A stretch of DNA of 14,922 bases from Methanobacteriota archaeon. Lineage in GTDB: Archaea; Halobacteriota; Methanosarcinia; Methanosarcinales; Methanoperedenaceae. The translations under genes were made by a program, and so were the position numbers. A model generated the notes under the pieces. That model ran no database searches, was not told the origin of the DNA, and worked only from the letters and a program-made list of their open reading frames with translations. Below are positions 2 through 14,770 of the stretch, in pieces. The stretch lies in the NCBI GenBank assembly GCA_018899795.1, contig JAHIHJ010000252.1:1-14922 (forward strand). Direction: 5' to 3'. Within the stretch, counting starts at the first letter, position 1, and the number at the start of each line of letters is the position of its first letter.

Positions 2-46
2 AGAATCACTTACGGCAACCATCCGGAAAAAGGCATCTACTATTGA
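2..46 (+). CDS. C-terminal tail of an upstream gene (partial)
   Basis: From base 2 one frame reads RITYGNHPEKGIYY and then TGA at 44-46. The next gene's ATG follows after one base, which is the spacing expected inside an operon. Only 14 residues are visible, so the product cannot be named. A partner methyltransferase (MtrH-like) would suit the MtrA-like neighbour, but that is a guess from context. The open frame could also be chance. Confidence 0.4.
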   Translation, partial: RITYGNHPEKGIYY

Positions 47-47
47 A

Positions 48-1316
48 ATGCTAAAAGTTAGTCCCGTAGCAGACTATCCTACAGAGGAAGGTTGTTTTCT
101 TCGCGGAAACCATTACTCACCAGTGGCTGTGGTCGTCATGTTAAATGCACCTTACGGGACTATGCCACCTGAGGTGAAAAGCATCCCCCCAGAGATCGAT
201 AAGTTGGTAAGGTTAGCCGTAGAAACTGGAGCCGCGCTGTCAGGTACACTGCAGACAGAGAACATTGGGATAGAGAAGATCGTCTGCAACATTGTGGGGA
301 ACCCCAATATTCGCCATATAGTTCTTTGTGGCATCGATGTAGAGGGGCACCATTCCGGGGATGCTATTAGAGCCCTTATAGAAAACGGGGTTAACGAATG
401 GCGGACCATCATTGGCTCAACCGCGGTGACTCCCTATCTTTTCAACATTCCCAAGGAATCAATTGAGCGCTTTAGAAAGCAGCTTACGTTAATCAACCTT
501 TTAGGAGAAATGAATCCCGAGGTGATAACCAAGGCTGTCTGGTCCTGCTATCAGGAGAAGCCCACCCCGTTTTTGAATTACACGCTATCTGACCCAGGCG
601 CTTACCCTGAGCAGCCTATGTCCTGCAGGCTCAGCTGGAGAGTCAAACAACCAGAGAGCATCGAGGAATGGGAACTCAAAGACCTAGTTAAAGGGATTGA
701 GGAAGAAGAAAAGGCAGTAGCAGTTCCCCAACAGAAGGAGGTAGCGGTAAAGGTGAGTGAACCCAAGGTTGCAGCCATAGCTAGCTGTCTTTCACGGATA
801 GCTGAGGAGCTGTCCCAAATCGCTAAAATTCTCGTGGAGGAAAAACCTATAGTGCCAGTTAAGGAAGCGCCGGTGGTAGAAGAAGCGAAGCCAGTCTGTG
901 TGGTCAAAGAGGAGACGCCCGCTGCAGTCGCCCCAGCCGTTGTCGAGCTTACGGAGAAGGAGCTGTATTTTCATAACCAGTTGAGGGCATACCCCGGCAT
1001 CCTGGCTGGACTTTCGGCTTGCGACAAGGATATGTGCCATAATGGCTGTTCCCTGCCAGCTGCCGTAACCTCCATTACCAAGAAGCTGGCTAAACTGAAG
1101 AAGGACATAGAGGGAGCGTCTATTTCCAAGAAAAAAAGAGAGGAATTCTTGGCCAGGATTGACGGCTTCTTAGAGGCTGCTGAAGGCCTGCCCACAGAAC
1201 CGGGACAACCCTGTCAGAAGACACTAGGCAACTGTACTATCGGCAAGGGATGCCTGGCCACTGGAGCGGCAGATCTGTTAAAGCAAATCACCGAGCCAGC
1301 ATCACTGATGCAATAG
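48..1316 (+). CDS. MtrA-like corrinoid protein fused to a C-terminal cysteine-rich domain
   Basis: Residues 1-200 resemble MtrA, the corrinoid-carrying subunit of the H4MPT:coenzyme M methyltransferase. Visible matches include GAALSG and ENIGIEKIV (about 61-79), NPNIRHIVL (about 85-93) and VEGHHSGDA (98-106). His101 aligns with the histidine of methanogen VKGHITGEA, the likely lower cobalt ligand. Methanogen MtrA ends in a membrane helix; here there is none. An Ala/Pro/Val/Glu-rich linker (about 215-300) leads instead to a Cys domain (305-415) with C325, C330, C334, C389, C396 and C402. That domain is repeated as the next two stand-alone genes. The likely role is a soluble methyl-corrinoid carrier with an attached metal or redox domain; the partner methyltransferase is unknown. 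The ATG lies 1 nt after the preceding stop and has no strong Shine-Dalgarno (SD) site, which suggests coupling. The MtrA call is firm. The Cys-domain function is unknown. Confidence 0.85.
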   Translation: MLKVSPVADYPTEEGCFLRGNHYSPVAVVVMLNAPYGTMPPEVKSIPPEIDKLVRLAVETGAALSGTLQTENIGIEKIVCNIVGNPNIRHIVLCGIDVEGHHSGDAIRALIENGVNEWRTIIGSTAVTPYLFNIPKESIERFRKQLTLINLLGEMNPEVITKAVWSCYQEKPTPFLNYTLSDPGAYPEQPMSCRLSWRVKQPESIEEWELKDLVKGIEEEEKAVAVPQQKEVAVKVSEPKVAAIASCLSRIAEELSQIAKILVEEKPIVPVKEAPVVEEAKPVCVVKEETPAAVAPAVVELTEKELYFHNQLRAYPGILAGLSACDKDMCHNGCSLPAAVTSITKKLAKLKKDIEGASISKKKREEFLARIDGFLEAAEGLPTEPGQPCQKTLGNCTIGKGCLATGAADLLKQITEPASLMQ

Positions 1317-1329
1317 AAGAGGAAAAAAT

Positions 1330-1683
1330 ATGTCTAACTATTTTACAAACCAATTAAGGGGATATCCTGTAGTTTTGGCTGCCCTTCAGGCTTACTCTAA
1401 GGACATCTGTAGAAACTGCATCGGTCAGGAAGGGAGCCAAACTAAGGTCAAAAAGGGTCTAAAGAAGTTAAGTATAGACCTAAAAGGGTCATCAATGCCT
1501 GAGGAAGAGAAAGGGGCGCTGCTTGCCCATATCGACTCCTTGTCGAGTGAGGCAGAGGCAATAGAGCTGTCTGAAGATTGCGAGTGCCAAAAGACAGCTG
1601 GTAATTGTAAGATCGGTACGGGCTGCTTCCCGTTAGGGGCATTGAACATACTAAAGCTCATCACCGAACCGGGAGCACCGTAA
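1330..1683 (+). CDS. Small cysteine-rich protein, paralogue of the MtrA-fused Cys domain (copy 1)
   Basis: This 117-aa protein has no signal peptide or membrane helix. It aligns end to end with residues 305-420 of the preceding MtrA fusion. Shared signatures are NQLRGYP near the N-terminus, a CxxC in DICRNCI (C27, C30), a charged helical middle, and CQKTAGNCKIGTGCF, which gives C86-x6-C93-x5-C99; C84 is extra. It ends in a KLITEPG-like tail, like the fusion. The conserved cysteines suggest a metal or Fe-S site, or a thiol redox centre (inference). It starts 13 nt after the fusion gene, with AGAGGAAA upstream of the ATG. I do not recognise a named family. Its role is presumably tied to the corrinoid protein, because the same domain occurs covalently fused to it. 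Confidence 0.8.
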   Translation: MSNYFTNQLRGYPVVLAALQAYSKDICRNCIGQEGSQTKVKKGLKKLSIDLKGSSMPEEEKGALLAHIDSLSSEAEAIELSEDCECQKTAGNCKIGTGCFPLGALNILKLITEPGAP

Positions 1684-1741
1684 ACTATGGTGGGTATCGA
1701 CTGTGACCAAAAAGTAATCATAAAAAAGGAGGTGAAATAAT

Positions 1742-2095
1742 ATGGCAGTAGAGGTTTTTGAAAACCAGCTTCTAGGCTATAGGACTGCATTGGGTGGTCT
1801 TGAAGCTCTAACCAGGGACATCTGCGTAAACTGCATAAATCTGGAAGCGGCAAAAACGAAGGTAGAGAATGGTTTAAAGAATCTGGCCAGGGATATAGAA
1901 GCTGAGTCCATCCCCAGCGCTGAGACCAAGGCAAACCTTAAAGCCCGAGTAGACGCCCTTTCCAAGGCTGCTGACGAGCTGGGTATTGCTGAGGATACCA
2001 GCTGTCAGAGGACCGCCGGGGTCTGCAAGATGGGAGCAGCATGTTTTGCCAACGGCGCAGCGGATTTGTTGAAGCTTGTTCCGGCACCAGGATGA
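1742..2095 (+). CDS. Small cysteine-rich protein, paralogue of the MtrA-fused Cys domain (copy 2)
   Basis: A second 117-aa stand-alone copy of the Cys domain. It carries NQLLGYR near the N-terminus, DICVNCI (C28, C31), a helical Lys/Glu/Ala-rich centre and CQRTAGVCKMGAACF (C88-x6-C95-x5-C101). Compared with copy 1 it lacks the additional Cys two residues before the third cysteine, so the shared core is five cysteines. The start is well fixed by AAGGAGGTGA, a near-perfect SD about 7 nt before the ATG. Such a strong SD suggests high translation, possibly above that of copy 1. Two adjacent copies plus a fused one suggest tandem duplication and divergence. The function is unknown; a metal-binding or electron-transfer role beside the MtrA-like protein is inference. 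Confidence 0.8.
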   Translation: MAVEVFENQLLGYRTALGGLEALTRDICVNCINLEAAKTKVENGLKNLARDIEAESIPSAETKANLKARVDALSKAADELGIAEDTSCQRTAGVCKMGAACFANGAADLLKLVPAPG

Positions 2096-2253
2096 GTAGC
2101 TATCGGGCAGGGAGTGATAACGGAGCCGGAGCGGCTACGGCCCTGGCCCAAAATAGGTCCATGCTCGCCTTCTTCCCCACCGTAATCTTTATATTCGCAG
2201 TGAGGCTAGTGATGATAAGTATTAAAAAGGAGGTCATTACTAATGAAATTTGA
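2092..2253 (+). CDS. Possible small single-helix membrane protein
   Basis: A 53-codon frame opens with ATG overlapping the stop of the preceding Cys protein (ATGA at 2092-2095), a classic coupling arrangement, and ends 11 nt inside the following DUF169 gene. Residues 24-45 are strongly hydrophobic (SMLAFFPTVIFIFAVRLVMI) and would make one membrane helix, with one Arg inside it. Residues 1-22 are Gly/Ala/Ser-rich. Against it, the strong SD of the next gene lies within this frame, the N-terminal composition is unremarkable, and no homologue is recognised. If it is not a gene, 2096-2242 is simply the leader of the DUF169 gene. Confidence 0.27.
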   Translation: MSSYRAGSDNGAGAATALAQNRSMLAFFPTVIFIFAVRLVMISIKKEVITNEI

Positions 2254-2911
2254 AGAACTCTCAAAAAAGTTGAAGACCACTTTGGAGCTGGGAGACTCTC
2301 CAGTTGGGGTAAAACTAATCAAGGTTGGTGAGAAACTGCCGGAAATCGCTGAGCGAGCCGAGCCTATTGCCTATTGTGCATCCATAGCACGTGCTAGGAA
2401 GGGTGAATCCATTCTTCTAGGAAAAGATAAACATGGGTGCCCAGTCGGTGCTGCTATTCTTGGCTTAATTAGTGTTCCGGAAAAGATAGCCTCAGGAGAA
2501 ACTCACGCCGGTGCGGGACTTTTAAGCTCGCCAGCCGCTGCAAGCAAGACGGTAGGCGAGATCCCGAGGATCGATGCCGAAACTATTCAGGCAACATTGG
2601 TTTTTCCGCTCGAGAAGGCGCCTTTGGAACCCGAAGTCGTCATCCTACATGTAAAACCTGACCAAGCGCTGTGGGTAGCACTTGCGCTTAATTACACTAG
2701 GGGTGGAAGAATTTCTTCCAGCTTTGCTGGCATCGGAGGTACATGCGGGGATGCTACTGTGATACCCTACCTGAAAAACAGTCCAAACTTCACCACAGGT
2801 GACTTTGGCGGTAGGACGCGTAGAGCGCCTGAAGAGATGATCGTGGGCATACCAGTTTCCTTACTACAGGAAGTGGTTAATAACTTAGAGAAGCTAGGTT
2901 GTCCAAGGTAA
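2243..2911 (+). CDS. DUF169 (COG2043-type) protein
   Basis: This 222-aa soluble protein matches the DUF169 family, widespread in methanogens and anaerobic bacteria and without an established function. Family-like segments are DSPVGVKLI near residues 18-26, PIAYCASIARARKGE (C45), HGCPVGAAILGL (C66), LNYTRGGRISSSFAGIGGTCGD (C168) and EEMIVGIPVSLL near the C-terminus. The conserved cysteines and glycine-rich segments suggest a ligand or metal site, but no catalytic role is known. AAAAGGAGGTC precedes the ATG at good spacing and fixes the start. It follows the MtrA-like/Cys-domain genes in the same direction, so it is probably co-transcribed and may work in the same C1 or corrinoid context (inference). 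Confidence 0.83.
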   Translation: MKFEELSKKLKTTLELGDSPVGVKLIKVGEKLPEIAERAEPIAYCASIARARKGESILLGKDKHGCPVGAAILGLISVPEKIASGETHAGAGLLSSPAAASKTVGEIPRIDAETIQATLVFPLEKAPLEPEVVILHVKPDQALWVALALNYTRGGRISSSFAGIGGTCGDATVIPYLKNSPNFTTGDFGGRTRRAPEEMIVGIPVSLLQEVVNNLEKLGCPR

Positions 2912-2996
2912 AATCACAGAAAGAAGTATAACATGCGCCAGCATCAGTCCAGCGTGTTGCTCTTCATAAACTAACTATGAAAGTAGGTGAAGAGGT

Positions 2997-3137
2997 ATGG
3001 CCGAACGTCTTTGCAAACTCACGAGCAAAAAGCTAAACTTTCCCGAGGATTGTAAGGGTTGCGAGTATTTAAAACCTCGGGGAAAGATAAGCTGTTGCAC
3101 CTATAAAGGACCCGCAAAAAAGAGTCGTTGCAAATAG
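2997..3137 (+). CDS. 46-aa cysteine-rich small protein
   Basis: A short frame of 46 codons has a good SD (AGGTGA at about 2985-2990) and an ATG at 2997. It holds six cysteines: C6, C19, C22 (CKGC), C33, C34 and C45, together with many lysines. The paired-Cys pattern suggests a zinc knuckle or other small metal-binding fold. It lies 85 nt after the DUF169 gene. Its stop is only 31 nt before the first attC-like site, so it could be the last gene of the MtrA-like operon or the gene of an upstream integron cassette. No similarity to the larger Cys domain upstream is evident. The function is unknown. Confidence 0.55.
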   Translation: MAERLCKLTSKKLNFPEDCKGCEYLKPRGKISCCTYKGPAKKSRCK

Positions 3138-3168
3138 TGGCAGATAAAAGAAGCGGGCTCGCAACTTC

Positions 3169-3248
3169 ACTTAACAGCGGATAAAAGACTTCGCTACGCT
3201 CCGCCCAAATTGCCTTCGGCAACTTCTTTTATCCGCGAACCGTTAGGC
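3169..3248 (+). other. attC-like integron recombination site 1
   Basis: The 80-bp site has an inverse core ACTTAAC (3169-3175, consensus RYYYAAC) and a core GTTAGGC (3242-3248, consensus GTTRRRY). Inside these lie a perfect 12-bp inverted pair, GCGGATAAAAGA (3177-3188) and TCTTTTATCCGC (3225-3236), and a small internal hairpin (TTGCC/GGCAA, 3210-3222). The spacers are 1 nt on the left and 5 nt on the right, which leaves unpaired bases as attC folding requires. Recombination would fall between G3242 and T3243. The inverse core is not matched by a visible cassette start upstream. Confidence 0.65.
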
Positions 3249-3285
3249 GAAATCCAAATATACTTTAAAGGAGATATAACACACG

Positions 3286-3552
3286 ATGATATCTGAAAAT
3301 GACAAGAACGTAATATTAACGTATGCGAAAAAGTATAAATTAGAAAAAGTTATTCTTTTCGGCTCATCGAAAGAAAGGACGGATGCACGAGATATAGATA
3401 TAGGTGTGAGAGGTATAGCTCCTGCGTTATTTTTCGATTTTTGTTGGGAGTTATATAGAGATTTATCTAAGCCTGTGGATGTTATTGACCTAAGCAAAGA
3501 TTGTTTATTTAATAAACTTATAGAAAAAGATGGGCTGGTGTTATATGGCTAA
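3286..3552 (+). CDS. mntA: MntA-like minimal nucleotidyltransferase antitoxin
   Basis: This 88-aa protein of the MNT nucleotidyltransferase family has LFGSS at 24-28, the Asp pair DIDIG (D36, D38) and a third acidic residue in PVDVID (D65), the usual catalytic triad. In MntA/HepT systems the enzyme adds AMP residues to a tyrosine of the HEPN toxin and so neutralises it. The glycine-serine to Asp spacing is eight residues, shorter than the GSX10DXD often quoted. AAAGGAGA (about 3267-3274) precedes the only suitable ATG. The gene overlaps the HEPN gene by 8 nt, so the two are translated together. It is the first gene in the putative cassette. Confidence 0.85.
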   Translation: MISENDKNVILTYAKKYKLEKVILFGSSKERTDARDIDIGVRGIAPALFFDFCWELYRDLSKPVDVIDLSKDCLFNKLIEKDGLVLYG

Positions 3553-3976
3553 TGTAAAAGAAAAAGTTCATGCGGAGATGGAAAATATTACAAAAGTTTT
3601 GATCGAATTAGAAAAGGTGAAAGATACACCCAACAAGGAACTTGTAGTTCTTGTAGGAATAGGAGCATATCTTCAAAATGTCTACACGGGGATGGAAAAC
3701 ATTTTGAAACAACTATTATCACACAAGAACATACCAATACCTGACACGCCCACATGGCACAAGGATTTATTGAATTTGGCTGCTGAACACAATCTTATAA
3801 CGAAGGAAATTGCCGACAAAATAGGTAAGTATTTATTCTTCCGTCATTTCTTCACGCATGCTTACGGTTTTCTCATAGATGAGGCGAAATTAAATCCTCT
3901 AATGGACAACATCGCTGACATTTATTCTGAGTTTAAAAGAGAAATCGAGAAGTATCTATCAAAGATCGAAGAATGA
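3545..3976 (+). CDS. hepT: HepT-like HEPN ribonuclease toxin
   Basis: This 143-aa, largely helical HEPN protein contains RHFFTHAY at residues 100-107, which is exactly the RX4HXY motif of HepT. R100 and H105 form the RNase site, and Y107 is the residue that the partner MntA modifies. The ATG at 3545 lies inside the end of the mntA-like gene (8-nt overlap). An ATG five codons earlier (3530) is possible but adds only MGWCY. The product would be an RNA-cleaving toxin in defence or maintenance of the cassette (family knowledge). The stop codon is 22-25 nt upstream of the downstream attC-like site, typical for a cassette gene. Confidence 0.87.
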   Translation: MANVKEKVHAEMENITKVLIELEKVKDTPNKELVVLVGIGAYLQNVYTGMENILKQLLSHKNIPIPDTPTWHKDLLNLAAEHNLITKEIADKIGKYLFFRHFFTHAYGFLIDEAKLNPLMDNIADIYSEFKREIEKYLSKIEE

Positions 3977-4000
3977 ACTCATACAAGTTTCATGGACTTC

Positions 4001-4090
4001 GCCTAACAGAGCGTATCTGGCTACGTGCCTTCGGCACTCCGCCCAAATTCCCCTCTGGGGGGAACTTCAGGTACGCTCGTGACGTTATAC
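4001..4090 (+). other. attC-like integron recombination site 2
   Basis: The 90-bp site has inverse core GCCTAAC (4001-4007) and core GTTATAC (4084-4090, one position off GTTRRRY). Its arms GAGCGTATCTG (4009-4019) and CAGGTACGCTC (4068-4078) pair with one mismatch. Spacers of 1 nt (left) and 5 nt (right) are the same as in site 1. It shares CTCCGCCCAAATT and AACTTC with site 1 and holds internal hairpins at 4025-4037 (GTGCC/GGCAC) and 4048-4064 (TTCCCC/GGGGAA). The shared architecture with a different arm sequence is what attC sites show. Confidence 0.62.
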
Positions 4091-4204
4091 GCAATCTGCC
4101 TTCGGGGTCGCCTTTCGGAAAGTTTAATAAATATAGATATGATAAAAGAATATTAAATTTATGAGGTAATGAACATGCGAAAAATATATTAGCAATGTAT
4201 AAAA

Positions 4205-4274
4205 AACCACAGAGAACGCAGAGGACACAGAGAAAAAGCAGCAACTCTCTGTGCTCTCTGTGTCCTCCGTGGTT
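4205..4274. repeat. Long imperfect inverted repeat (ACAGAG-type)
   Basis: Arms 4205-4233 and 4246-4274 are 29 nt each and pair with five mismatches around a 12-nt loop. Each arm is itself built from ACAGAG/GCAGAG-like sub-repeats, beginning AACCACAGAG. Elements of this look are dispersed in many archaeal and bacterial genomes (general recollection). It sits about 80 bp before trpA and after the cassette, with no coding sequence. It could fold as RNA or DNA and may be a non-autonomous repeat or a transcription barrier. Confidence 0.7.
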
Positions 4275-4329
4275 AATTATCTGACCGGGTTTGATAATCC
4301 AGAATTCAATAGCGGGATAAGAAAATGTG

Positions 4330-4337
4330 TTTATAAA
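4330..4337 (+). promoter_or_regulatory. TATA box for trpA, probably leaderless
   Basis: TTTATAAA is centred about 23 nt before the ATG at 4356. Archaeal transcription starts about 25 nt downstream of the TATA centre, so the mRNA would begin at or beside the start codon. No SD precedes the ATG (GTTAAAAAA), which fits a leaderless message. Confidence 0.5.
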
Positions 4338-4355
4338 TTCCTATGTGTTAAAAAA

Positions 4356-5135
4356 ATGATGCTCAGTGAAAAATTCAGGGAATTAAAAGCGAAAAACGAA
4401 GGCGCCCTTATTGCCTACATCTGCGCAGGCGACCCTACGCCTGAGGCTACAAAAGAGTATGCTACAGCGCTTGTCAGGGGTGGCGCGGATATTATAGAAC
4501 TCGGATTGCCATTTTCCGACCCCGTGGCAGACGGACCCACAATCCAGGCTGGCATTGAGCGGGCGCTGAACGCTGGAATGACGCCTGATATTTATTTTGA
4601 GACTGTTAGCTCTCTAAATGTTAATATCCCGCTTGTGGTGATGACATACTATAACCTCATATTCAGAAGAGGGCTTGAAAAATTCGTAAAGGATTGCGTA
4701 TCCTCTGGTATCTCTGGCATTATAGTTCCAGACCTTCCTGTCGAGGAATCCAGCGAGCTTGCAGTTTTCTGTAAGAAACACGATGTTGCCCTCATTTTCC
4801 TCGTGGCTCCAACAACAACAGAATCAAGGATGAAGCGGATATTGGCGCAGGGAACTGGTTTTATCTATCTTGTGGCTCGCCTCGGCGTTACGGGAGCAAG
4901 AGCGGATATTGCAAACGCTACAAAGGAACTGATAAAAAGGGTAAAGACCACAACTCCAAAAGCTGTGGGATTTGGGATATCCAATGGAAAACAGGCTGCT
5001 GAAATTATCCGCTCCGGAGCTGACGGAGTGATCGTGGGTTCTGCATTTGTGGATATAATCGCAAGCGGAAAGGATGTTCCTGCGAGGCTTGAGGCGCTGG
5101 CGAGGGAGCTAAAAGAAGGGGCTGCGCAGGGATGA
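4356..5135 (+). CDS. trpA: Tryptophan synthase alpha chain
   Basis: TrpA cleaves indole-3-glycerol phosphate to indole and glyceraldehyde 3-phosphate and passes indole to TrpB. The 259-aa TIM barrel shows GALIAYICAGDPTP (16-29), IIELGLPFSDPVADGPTIQ with catalytic Glu48 and Asp59 (equivalent to Salmonella Glu49 and Asp60), GISGIIVPDLPVEE, and the phosphate-binding GFGISNG and GVIVGSAFV near the C-terminus. Length and motifs are complete. The start was placed at 4356 (4359 is equally possible) because an in-frame extension back to 4251 would read through the inverted repeat and has no family match. No trpB or other trp gene is adjacent, so it is a stand-alone copy in this window. Confidence 0.95.
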   Translation: MMLSEKFRELKAKNEGALIAYICAGDPTPEATKEYATALVRGGADIIELGLPFSDPVADGPTIQAGIERALNAGMTPDIYFETVSSLNVNIPLVVMTYYNLIFRRGLEKFVKDCVSSGISGIIVPDLPVEESSELAVFCKKHDVALIFLVAPTTTESRMKRILAQGTGFIYLVARLGVTGARADIANATKELIKRVKTTTPKAVGFGISNGKQAAEIIRSGADGVIVGSAFVDIIASGKDVPARLEALARELKEGAAQG

Positions 5136-6778: not shown

Positions 6779-6787
6779 CCTGAATGT

Positions 6788-6813
6788 TCATCCCTTCTTT
6801 TTATTAGGGATGA
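6788..6813 (+). terminator. 8-bp hairpin after the FAH-family gene (terminator or 5'-leader hairpin)
   Basis: TCATCCCT (6788-6795) and AGGGATGA (6806-6813) form a perfect stem around a T-rich 10-nt loop. It may end the FAH transcript. It also falls at the predicted transcription start of the next small gene and so could be an initiation-region or leader structure. Confidence 0.4.
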
Positions 6814-7003: not shown

Positions 7004-7008
7004 AATAA

Positions 7009-7016
7009 TTTTTTTT
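7009..7016 (+). terminator. Poly-T terminator of the 50-aa gene
   Basis: Eight T residues begin 5 nt after the TGA of the 50-aa gene. Archaeal RNA polymerase terminates at such U-tracts without needing a hairpin. Confidence 0.5.
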
Positions 7017-7205
7017 CAGTATCCATCGTTTTTTATTAGTTAAAACACTGGACTGTAAACTTCTTTTATATAATAAAAATAGTACGCAAAAACTATTGGC
7101 AGTTTCATGCAGGTATTTGTAACCGCTATTTGACCAGCGCAGCAATTCCGCACGATTTCGAAACCTTTATCTAGGAGTACTTTCATTAAAAATGATGGGC
7201 ATTAT

Positions 7206-12191: not shown

Positions 12192-12260
12192 GAAGTAATA
12201 ATTTCGCTCACCTACGCATTACTGTAATAAAAGCTTTCGCACAGAATTCATGTATCTGCT
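12192..12260. other. Intergenic stretch between rps8e and the insertion element
   Basis: A 69-bp gap. On the minus strand CTTTTATTA near 12220-12235 could be the TATA box of rps8e. One end of the insertion element should be here, but I could not find a terminal repeat that matches the other side. Confidence 0.35.
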
Positions 12261-14123
12261 CTATACCATCAATAAACCGTTGGATTGACTCTCCAGATTT
12301 TCCAATCCCCTTCCAATAATCTCGAAAACCTCAGAATCATCATGCTTGAACTTGATTATCCTTCCCCTACGTTCAGCATAGAATCGCTTCTGTTCCAGTT
12401 TGAACATCTCATAGGGTACCTGACTGAACACAACAGGAATATTCTCAATGCTTCCATATACCGTTTTTATATATTCATCATTGGTCAAGTTCCAAACAAT
12501 CGGCAAATAAGAACCATAGAAATTCAGATCATGACCAACATCCCTATTTCCATGAATTCTCCTTTGATTCCTCTTGAATTTTCTAAAATTTTGTTCTTCA
12601 ATATTATTAGTTCGATCCATTATGATATCCTTTGACGGATCATTCGGATCAACTCGAAAATTAGTCAAGAACAGATTATTCTTATACCTCTCCAGATGAT
12701 CAATGATGATCTTCTTTTCACGAACTTGAGGTTTATTATTCGTGAGATTTTTATACAATTCGTATTTAAAAGCTTCAAGTTCCTGCTCCATTTTACAAAC
12801 CTCATCATCACTTTCAGTTTCCAAAACACTACTTAGAGGCACAATTTCAGAATCTATCCTCAATATCCTTCGCAACCGTGAAAATAATTTTCTTCCATAC
12901 TCCATTTTCTCATGAACTAATTTTATCTCCTGATTATCCACATCCATCAAGATTTTTTTCAATTGTATCAATGGTTTATAAACCGTTTTTAATTCAGCCA
13001 ATATCAGAATAAGCCGCTCAACAATTTTTCTTGCCTTACAGCATCTTTCATATAACGAAACATAAGGCAAATCGAACGGAAATCCCAACCCATCTCCTTC
13101 TTTGTAATAATGAAGAATCCATGATACAATTGCATAAACATAAACCGGCTTATTTTTTCTTAATTCTGAGAGCTTGCAATTTACAATCGAATCGAATGTA
13201 GGATTTACATCATAACCGCCAAAATTGATCTCAGTTATCAAATCATCAGCAAGCCTTCTGAGGCTTGTTCTGATTTTATTATCAATCAGGAATTTTCGGA
13301 TAGAATCATATTGCTCTGAGAGAATATCTTTACCAATATCTCTCGAAAAATGATAATGACAAATCTTATCTGGCTTGTTCGGGAATACTTCTGAAACTGC
13401 AAGTTTCATTCCTTTTCCCATATCTCTTTTAATAGCAAGAGGATCACCATACCTGCTTTTTATCACTTCAAGTGCCGGTTTGATCTCTTCATGGCTTTCA
13501 CTTCTCATTTTTTTGGAATGAAGAATCCAACCATTGACACTATTCATACCCATGAACACCATATCGCTATCCTCTTCCACGGTTGCGTCGATATGTAAAA
13601 TGTAGCCACCTCTTTTGTCCTGGACTTCCTTGATCATGGCGGATGCCAGTTCATGGACACACATGCAATATATCAAAAAATTATCTGAGAGATGAGTTAT
13701 GCCGCTATCTGAAATCTTTATCTCATATTCGATTTTGAGTTCATGCTGTATCTCTGATTTCTGTTTATGATGCAAAAACCTTGATAATCCAATATGAACA
13801 GACACATCATAGGCATAATTCGAATATGGTGGAACTATCTGGTTCAATTCAGGTGAATCATATTTTATGATGCTGTTGCCATCGTATTTATGCTCTGGGC
13901 AGAACAGTAATGTCTCAACAGCAATAAATTCTCTATATTTGATTGAAAATACAGTTGTTCTTTGTGTTTTTAGGACATGTAGAACACAGCTGCGTATACC
14001 ACAAATACCATCGTTGGCTCTAAAGTGGATCTCGATTTTTGATTCAACATATGCAAGGGATATTTCTTCAGGAATGGCATTCTTAAGTTTTATGAAATCA
14101 TTTAAAAGTGAGATGGAGACCCC
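12261..14123 (-). CDS. OrfB, DDE transposase domain, expressed by -1 frameshift from OrfA
   Basis: This frame is open from 14135 to 12261 with no usable ATG near its start. An in-frame TTG lies at 13847, but coding sequence clearly continues upstream of it: GICGIRSC, LLFCPEHKYDGNS and YDSPELNQIVPP. Numbering the fusion from the OrfA start, the zinc-type pairs are C257/C262 and C291/H294. The RNase H-like core shows HIDAT (D395), RDMGKGM (D450) and CHYHF, and a late NNIEEQ (near E725) supplies a candidate acidic residue. A DDE-type, perhaps MULE-like, fold is likely; the IS family is not identified. The domain is complete to its stop. It is most simply made as the second half of an 836-residue frameshift product. 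Confidence 0.75.
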   Translation of the reverse strand, partial: GVSISLLNDFIKLKNAIPEEISLAYVESKIEIHFRANDGICGIRSCVLHVLKTQRTTVFSIKYREFIAVETLLFCPEHKYDGNSIIKYDSPELNQIVPPYSNYAYDVSVHIGLSRFLHHKQKSEIQHELKIEYEIKISDSGITHLSDNFLIYCMCVHELASAMIKEVQDKRGGYILHIDATVEEDSDMVFMGMNSVNGWILHSKKMRSESHEEIKPALEVIKSRYGDPLAIKRDMGKGMKLAVSEVFPNKPDKICHYHFSRDIGKDILSEQYDSIRKFLIDNKIRTSLRRLADDLITEINFGGYDVNPTFDSIVNCKLSELRKNKPVYVYAIVSWILHYYKEGDGLGFPFDLPYVSLYERCCKARKIVERLILILAELKTVYKPLIQLKKILMDVDNQEIKLVHEKMEYGRKLFSRLRRILRIDSEIVPLSSVLETESDDEVCKMEQELEAFKYELYKNLTNNKPQVREKKIIIDHLERYKNNLFLTNFRVDPNDPSKDIIMDRTNNIEEQNFRKFKRNQRRIHGNRDVGHDLNFYGSYLPIVWNLTNDEYIKTVYGSIENIPVVFSQVPYEMFKLEQKRFYAERRGRIIKFKHDDSEVFEIIGRGLENLESQSNGLLMV

Positions 14124-14770
14124 TTTTTTTGAATGTCATATTTTTCAAATATATTTTGAATGAAAGAGTCAGGTATTTTCAATCCTTCCTGACGCAATAA
14201 CTTCCCTATTTCCTGAGGCTGTGCATTTGGATTCCGGATTATTTCCAGAAGTATTCGGATTGTCTTTTTTTCAGAAGATGTCTCTGAGTCTTCCTTAGTT
14301 GAGTGTATTTTTAGTTCTTTTTCTCTGTTTGAAATCTGTTTTTGTTGAGTGCTATCATCAATTGAATAATATACATAGAAATCAGCGTATTTTTTTCGTA
14401 TTATTAGACCTTTTCTCACAAATTGATGTAGCTGATTACTTACCCGTGTTCTGATTTTATTGCTCAGTTCTTCTGCAGTGTATCCTTTTTCACTTGAATC
14501 TATTTTTTTTATGACCAGTTCTTGTATTCCTCCATCCCTGAAAAACAAAATTCCTTTATGGTCGAATATTCCAGATTCATCAAATTTCGCGATTTCAAGG
14601 AGAGTATAATATTTACCATTCCGGTTGTAGCTTGTAGTATATCCTATATCTTTCAAATTTCGGAATACGGTTATTCTGGAACTTGAAGTTTTTTTCATCA
14701 GGTCTTCTATGTCCATTACAATATTCTTCTTGAATAATTCCTTCAATTCAGTTACATCGATCGAACTCAT
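14102..14770 (-). CDS. OrfA, helix-turn-helix N-terminal part of the transposase
   Basis: This 222-aa protein has two winged-helix-like regions (DIEDLMKKTSSSRITVFRNL near residues 20-39, and YTAEELSNKIRTRVSNQLHQ near 96-115) and a charged linker (about 140-165), so it probably binds the element's ends or regulates transposition. The zero frame runs only six residues past the slippery A7 run (GSPSHF) before its stop, as expected for a short non-shifted product. The ATG at 14770 has no clear SD and is directly preceded by an 11-bp inverted repeat. OrfA alone may act as a repressor, as in other frameshifting IS (family analogy). Confidence 0.7.
   Translation of the reverse strand: MSSIDVTELKELFKKNIVMDIEDLMKKTSSSRITVFRNLKDIGYTTSYNRNGKYYTLLEIAKFDESGIFDHKGILFFRDGGIQELVIKKIDSSEKGYTAEELSNKIRTRVSNQLHQFVRKGLIIRKKYADFYVYYSIDDSTQQKQISNREKELKIHSTKEDSETSSEKKTIRILLEIIRNPNAQPQEIGKLLRQEGLKIPDSFIQNIFEKYDIQKKGSPSHF
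14123..14129 (-). promoter_or_regulatory. Slippery heptamer A AAA AAG for -1 frameshifting
   Basis: In the OrfA frame the codons are CAA AAA AAG GGG, the same heptamer and phase as the dnaX programmed frameshift. Slipping back one base leads straight into the OrfB frame (GGG GTC TCC). No strong downstream stem-loop is obvious in the AT-rich sequence. The run could instead be a homopolymer error or a real frameshift mutation. Confidence 0.6.

Follow-up and report, generated by a model that had tools for sequence, protein, structure and literature searches.

A probable toxin-antitoxin gene cassette in an archaeal integron array between trpB and trpA of Candidatus Methanoperedens

Two genes of the MntA/HepT toxin-antitoxin type, bounded by attC-type sites in the stretch of DNA analyzed here (14,922 nucleotides, hereafter the window), very probably form a gene cassette in an archaeal integron array on the chromosome of Candidatus Methanoperedens (ANME-2d). 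We take the window to be Methanoperedens chromosome; it carries trpA, an MtrA-like gene, and a gene for a TRM5/TYW2-type methyltransferase. Beyond this locus, comparison with related genomes leads us to lean, with more reserve, toward a separate archaeal integron lineage found above all in methane- and alkane-oxidizers. Such a lineage would combine a XerA-type recombinase devoid of the IntI-specific domain, an attI site past the 3′ end of the recombinase gene, attC sites whose 12-bp stem is unbroken and whose CAAAT joint is conserved, scattered platforms in multiple copies, and exchange of cassettes, including toxin-antitoxin pairs, with bacteria.

Results

The first attC-type site (positions 3169–3248, plus strand) comprises the inverse core ACTTAAC (3169–3175), an A, a 12-bp L stem, inner hairpins around CAAAT, the bases GAACC, and the core G^TTAGGC; the second (4001–4090, plus strand) comprises the inverse core GCCTAAC (4001–4007), an L stem, GTGAC, and the core G^TTATAC. 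Common to both, across a gap of 752 bp, are an RYYYAAC-type inverse core, a 12-pair L stem, five bases ahead of the core, and CTCCGCCCAAATT inside. This internal sequence had been pointed out in the original prediction, which also assigned both cores to the type GTTRRRY; the assignment holds for GTTAGGC, but GTTATAC fits it only loosely. A grammar scan of the window (AAC core, 2 nt, at least 9 of 10 pairs, 5–6 nt, GTT) returned exactly these two sites against 0.1 expected per window (30 first-order Markov resamples), and the bottom-strand folds of sites 1 and 2 gave z scores of −2.4 and −3.1 relative to shuffles.

The cassette (764 bp, 3243–4006, plus strand) begins at G^TT in site 1 and reaches the inverse core of site 2, a delimitation based on the complementarity of its ends. 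Read directly from the plus strand, its start (TTAGGCGAA, 3243–3251) is the exact reverse complement of its end (TTCGCCTAA, 3998–4006). The nine-base complementarity noted in the original prediction is thus exact, and it extends to 14 of 18 positions overall. Inside lie two plus-strand genes. The first (3286–3552) encodes an MntA-like nucleotidyltransferase antitoxin of 88 aa (PF18765, Polbeta/MNT, 30.1 bits; cut-off 26.9) with a GS-X8-DID motif in its translation. The second (3545–3976), whose ATG overlaps the end of the first, encodes a HepT-like HEPN toxin of 143 aa (PF20797, HepT-like_2, 68.1 bits; cut-off 27) with an RX4HXY motif (RHFFTHAY). The pair shows features expected of an MntA/HepT toxin-antitoxin system, a HEPN protein with RX4HXY and a match to a Pfam HepT family; both proteins score below the NCBIfam equivalog cut-off of 60 (MntA, 24.1 bits; HepT, 22.2 bits).

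Alignment of the window's two sites with five more from G001, a genome of the genus Ca. Methanoperedens, yielded a 12-bp stem and four core pairs, in which 98.2% of 112 cells pair and 8 of 16 pairs are altered on both sides; the covariation score was reached by 0 of 500 shuffles. Grammar scan, folds, covarying stem, and Pfam matches together bear out the proposal that two attC-type sites flank an MntA/HepT pair. A model built from these seven sites (R1), which scores site 1 at 80 bits and site 2 at 82 bits as members of its own training set, was then used to count matches at E up to 0.01. Further sites across the genome, which the original prediction had suggested looking for, were found: R1 detects 10 in G001 and has matches in 29 of 60 relatives, G001 included, with 39 sites in Candidatus Methanoperedenaceae archaeon GB37 (a single contig) and none in the six genomes of family f5. 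The sites are hairpin structures of about 65–140 bp. At least nine unbroken stem pairs occur in 54 of 79 distinct sites and CAAAT in 64 of 79 (3.7 by shuffling). With R1 and the attI model R2 (below) trained on sites of this kind, these counts partly reflect selection, whereas orientation and the complementarity of cassette ends are free of that bias. Among the 150 R1 matches listed, on which our orientation counts rest, all 33 neighboring pairs less than 5 kb apart are co-oriented.

R1 gave no match on a bacterial plasmid integron from Thiodictyon (L247) and so models this attC subfamily, not all attC. Five plasmid regions yielded too few safe sites for a bacterial attC model. The unbroken stem was considered as an archaeal mark and rejected, one of three bacterial sites having 20 pairs.

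End complementarity was measured over 26 cassettes, the remainder of 36 consecutive co-oriented pairs after six without a readable core were dropped and four exceeding 4 kb left out; the window's own sites were dropped as duplicates of locus L011, and at least two of the 26 (L072 and L079) are near-copies of each other. Start and end of the same cassette agreed at 4.92 of 7 bases over positions 3–9 and at 3.65 of 9 over positions 10–18, versus 3.43 and 2.31 for mismatched partners, an excess reached by 0 of 2,000 permutations for either stretch. Individual cassettes vary widely, from 2 to 9 exact bases from the cut, and several have little complementarity (runs of 2–4). Position 10 is mostly A at the cassette start (36 of 51 sites) and C at the end (32 of 51), 9 of 60 sites having been dropped for want of a clean core. 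One short cassette (TTATCCAAAATTGGCAAA...) lies behind four different sites, the sequence changing at G^TT each time: two places in G001, one in G014 directly behind an attI, and one in a MAG titled Methanosarcinaceae (L192). Judged from sequence, this recurrence would be the best trace of past movement.

The surroundings of the cassette could be extended through contig C126 of G001, to which positions 2–5087 of the window are 100% identical over 5,086 bp. The rest of the window is 74%–86% identical to other G001 contigs among the matches listed, and G001 carries its own trpBA on contig C69; C126 is therefore probably of the window's species and misbinned into G001. In the window's orientation, C126 reads trpB stop (7157–7159), a stretch resembling recombinase 3′ flank, attI (7008–7094), a cupin-like cassette, an attC, the short cassette just described, an attC, an IS, MtrA-like and DUF169 genes, window site 1, MntA/HepT, site 2, and trpA, with the labels IS, cupin, and 3′ flank read by eye without a search. 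Two further attC thus lie upstream of the window. The attI-like site that heads the array, on a contig of another MAG than the window's, was first spotted by pattern; it lies ~1.9–2.0 kb upstream of the window (about −1920 to −2006) and scores 69 bits with R2, of whose 16 training sequences it is one. Between the second and third attC of C126, that is, from the second C126 site to window site 1, the ends match at 5 of 9 positions only, so this 4.5-kb stretch is not one intact cassette. The core of the last attC and the bases behind it (GTTATACGCAATC, then GC and CGGG; 4083–4104, plus strand) recur near-identically behind another attC on C126 and behind three attI sites (in G057, G041, and G011).

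At the far end of the array, trpA (4356–5135, plus strand; Trp_syntA, 302 bits) lies ~6.4 kb from trpB. The original prediction had called for comparison with the empty site in related genomes. With trpBA junctions located via the TrpB tail, trpB directly abuts trpA in 9 of 9 relatives compared, from which we conclude that ~6.4 kb were gained at this locus. No integrase gene was found at the locus, and no intact recombinase of the attI-linked type described below was seen in G001 (87% complete); such recombinases are putatively tied to the arrays by their position.

Two other features of the window were recorded. Beside trpA, an imperfect palindrome (CCACAGAGAACGCAGAGG...CCTCCGTGG, 4202–4295) has 19 more matches in G001 at 77%–91% identity and is a member of a dispersed hairpin repeat family; the one Rfam match in the window, a chance hit to a plant microRNA family (E 0.16), falls on this repeat (4206–4273). 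Farther along, a transposable element is suggested by the stretch 12259–14749, which contigs of G013 and G001 match at 85% and 79% identity; a 528-aa open reading frame there (12261–13847, minus strand) has no Pfam match.

The attI-like sites consist of a repeat pair (about GGATATACGAAC..GTTCGGATATA) followed by the core GTTATAYGNAAT, and are seen downstream of recombinase genes and gene fragments. R2 matched 40 of 60 relatives and none of the six genomes of family f5. At 40 bits or more there were 59 attI. Going by the attC matches listed, 26 of these attI are followed on the same strand by an R1 attC no more than 5 kb away, 1 has an attC upstream on the same strand, and 0 have one on the opposite strand; the 33 with none downstream within 5 kb may reflect contig ends and lost or unrecognized sites. 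GB37 has seven distinct attI among the matches listed (10 of 12 R2 matches, some places being read on both strands).

An exact attI pattern occurs in 95 stretches of GTDB r220 contigs, by title 87 archaeal and 8 bacterial, though misbinning may underlie some of these titles. Many of the archaeal ones are ANME-1 Methanophagales, Argoarchaeum, and other Methanosarcinales, and Thermoplasmatota, Nitrosotalea, and Nano-, Micr-, Hades-, and Thorarchaeota also appear. R1, run on 81 of 96 attI-pattern loci, found 60 attC at 42 of the 81: 49 follow attI on the same strand (38 loci), 9 precede it on that strand, and 2 lie downstream on the other strand. The pattern also occurs in one contig of a viral collection (L237, IMGVR_UViG_3300042473_000479, 6779–6812), where R1 found no attC at E up to 0.001.

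A search with the recombinase of GB37, where one full-length gene was found, gave 19 matches at E up to 1e-70 among 392 genomes of the phylum, spread over 17 of them. In 16 of these strongest matches an attI (20.5 to 69 bits) lies just past the 3′ end of the gene on the same strand, and for the remaining three the contig breaks off within 10 bases of the 3′ end. A downstream attC was present as well at 8 of the 19 loci (flank examined up to 1.5 kb), one of them cut off at the end of the locus. When 20 recombinase ends, mostly of fragments, were read individually, 17 had an attI by model or pattern; one more (G045:C8) had an attI by eye only, and two (G055:C96 and G011:C26) had none. Among 34 recombinase genes or gene fragments, ordinary XerA-like members included, 11 had an attI of at least 40 bits within 400 bp, and control XerA-like loci had none (0 of 7). 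Conversely, recombinase remains, many of them short fragments, lie up to 1.7 kb upstream of attI at 24 of the 81 pattern loci, some of which have little upstream sequence.

These attI-linked recombinases belong to the XerA type. That of GB37 scores 242 bits against the XerA family (NF040815; cut-off 220) and 215 against the IntI family (cut-off 265). All 12 attI-linked recombinases aligned (12 of the 16) lack the IntI-specific insertion near patch III: the distance from KG.KDR to the end of HSLRHSFATHLL is 77 residues in 12 of 12 and 118 in two IntI controls, whose extra insertion amounts to ~41 residues. In a protein tree (n = 18), IntI stands apart (100/99), as do Methanoperedens XerA together with a second G023 protein (96/94). 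Eight attI-linked proteins form a group (86/96, 12 rows) that also takes in three database proteins and a single long-branch exception; because this exception (G041:C41), which has no attI, falls among them, attI linkage needs two changes on the tree. Two attI-linked integrases (L015, from G049:C23, and L083, from GB37) have an extra N-terminal region (an excisionase-type HTH in GB37, and a GKYW-type motif), which in G049 lies on a separate overlapping open reading frame.

It is unlikely that this is an ordinary array moved by a canonical IntI with its specific domain, acting in trans or since lost, and that the XerA-type genes beside attI are bystanders. Such a reading has precedent. Ghaly et al. 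(2022; PMC9668308) describe 75 archaeal MAGs that carry integrons, with 539 attC and six IntI. All six are said to bear the IntI-specific domain, which is called necessary for integron recombination, although three, too short or with partial coverage, were left off their tree. Most of these integrons are integrase-less arrays (CALINs), and 8 of 9 archaeal attC were recombined by IntI1 at rates comparable to the control. In our set, the IntI family model TIGR02249 exceeds its cut-off (265 bits) in 3 of 60 genomes (G041, G030, and G028). Only matches above 265 bits were counted, as the model was rejected as an integrase detector at search threshold, where 13 of 14 control genomes gave matches and none exceeded the cut-off. 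G001 is not among the three, and the IntI-type recombinase anticipated in the original prediction gives way to a platform-associated enzyme of XerA type. Against a canonical IntI, moreover, R1 finds no attC in the sequence read at the three IntI loci (the grammar scan alone gives one hairpin, at L032), the genes at two of them (L031 and L032, from G028:C5 and G041:C41) adjoin genes read as IS91-type transposases, and it is a XerA-type gene, lacking the insertion wherever aligned, that directly precedes attI. Integrase families named for integrons can thus belong to IS elements.

Membership of the enzyme in the XerA family also raises the prospect of Xer/dif modules, in which double-stranded gene modules, not folded single strands, are exchanged between short dif-like sites, as in the pdif modules of Acinetobacter; the GGATATA arms of the attI repeats presumably resemble archaeal dif. 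We regard this as very improbable, because the sites are hairpins of ~65–140 bp with a covarying 12-bp stem, and because chimeric sites that change at G^TT, together with end complementarity, are expected of an integron. Dispersed palindromic repeats (REP or MITE-like) flanking a gene pair by chance, which the original prediction had named as its refutation, would account for the recurrence of the sites genome-wide, up to 39 in one single-contig genome, but have next to no probability given that these sites stand in co-oriented arrays (33 of 33 pairs) downstream of attI, with each cassette end complementary to its own partner. Those same observations (co-orientation, own-partner complementarity, and an attI at the array head) uphold the integron-cassette reading, and an integron-like function is very likely.

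The toxin-antitoxin cargo has a wider distribution than the sites around it. HepT homologs number 246 at E up to 1e-10, the best 120 of them 72%–97% identical; names among those 120 are both archaeal and bacterial (Thermoplasmatota, Methanophagales, Aerophobetes, Bacteroidota, Zixibacteria, and WOR-3), which points to cross-domain transfer. Ten HepT loci were found in 9 of 392 genomes of the phylum. Among them, attC sites lie on both sides at the window's locus and at one distant locus (G228:C69, 40%), one attC lies directly downstream at another (G272:C236, 36%), and two have weak attC matches only (E 0.004 and 0.008). The nearest MntA/HepT relatives are without attC flanks: R1 found no attC at the closest HepT locus (G228:C16, 79%), and in G056 (78% at the DNA level) the pair stands without attC, its gene end and 3′ flank resembling the window's as far as the inverse core (36 of 41 bases). 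In G048 (74%), no likeness was found in the flank. Emergence of the cassette from a chromosomal pair like that of G056 was considered as well, but decay of a cassette would fit G056 equally.

Discussion

Under the integron reading, events would follow the course known from bacterial integrons: the excised cassette would form a circle, its bottom strand would fold at attC, and the recombinase, cutting at G^TT, would join the cassette to attI or to an attC. The MntA/HepT pair may guard the array against loss, since the antitoxin has to be kept. At this locus the recombinase gene appears eroded to its 3′ flank, and as no intact copy was seen in G001, the array is now probably fixed, or mobile only with an enzyme supplied in trans. 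Several platforms per genome with one intact integrase or none (in GB37, one intact gene, about seven attI, and 39 attC) imply that one enzyme may serve many arrays in trans.

If a XerA-type enzyme suffices without the IntI-specific domain, archaeal integrons have been under-counted. IntegronFinder demands this domain. Only IntIs and attCs detected by IntegronFinder were analyzed in the earlier survey (PMC9668308), going by its relevant passages. The proposed lineage would also open the step from chromosome-dimer resolvase to integron integrase to study in living intermediates, offer archaea and bacteria of methane-rich settings a concrete route for exchanging genes, and account for the splitting of a core operon like trpBA by cassettes. 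The original prediction held an archaeal location to be unusual; archaeal integrons were already published in 2022 (PMC9668308), and an archaeal location by itself is no novelty. In the open-licence PMC literature we found no title or abstract opening that describes the present form.

As to class, the array has what integrons in general have, at least two attC bounding cassettes and an attI at its head. It has no integrase with the IntI-specific insertion, and we therefore file it as an integron variant with a XerA-type integrase. It also fits the definition of a CALIN, which asks for two or more attC separated by less than 4 kb with no IntI beside them (PMC9668308): the window's two attC are 752 bp apart, with no IntI nearby.

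The window's gene pair shares with MntA/HepT type VII systems an MNT nucleotidyltransferase, a HEPN protein with RX4HXY, and overlapping genes, and differs in scoring under the NCBIfam equivalog cut-offs and in belonging to the HepT-like_2 family in Pfam. With bacterial integrons, the archaeal arrays have in common the inverse core, the L stem with inner structure, the G^TT core, and co-oriented cassettes. In bacterial integrons the integrase is usually divergent from the cassettes, whereas the archaeal integrase lies on the cassette strand, has attI past its 3′ end, and lacks the IntI insertion, and the archaeal attC stem usually has 12 unbroken pairs with a CAAAT joint. The GB37 recombinase scores above the cut-off of XerA, the archaeal chromosome-dimer resolvase family (NF040815), which NCBI already describes as "site-specific tyrosine recombinase/integron integrase"; the attI-linked enzymes nonetheless group apart from Methanoperedens XerA, and that of GB37 has its N-terminal extension with an excisionase-type HTH. 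XerA was described by Badel et al. 2021 (PMC8371274), in whose relevant passages it is not linked to cassettes. The closest parallel is with the archaeal integrons and CALINs of Ghaly et al. (PMC9668308). Judging from the relevant passages, these share attC arrays in archaeal MAGs, insertion at the core, attI immediately downstream of the integrase gene, and toxin-antitoxin cargo (10.5% of cassette proteins with a predicted function). Their IntIs are said to bear the IntI-specific domain, whereas the attI-linked recombinase here is of XerA type without it, is often eroded, and is accompanied by several platforms per genome.
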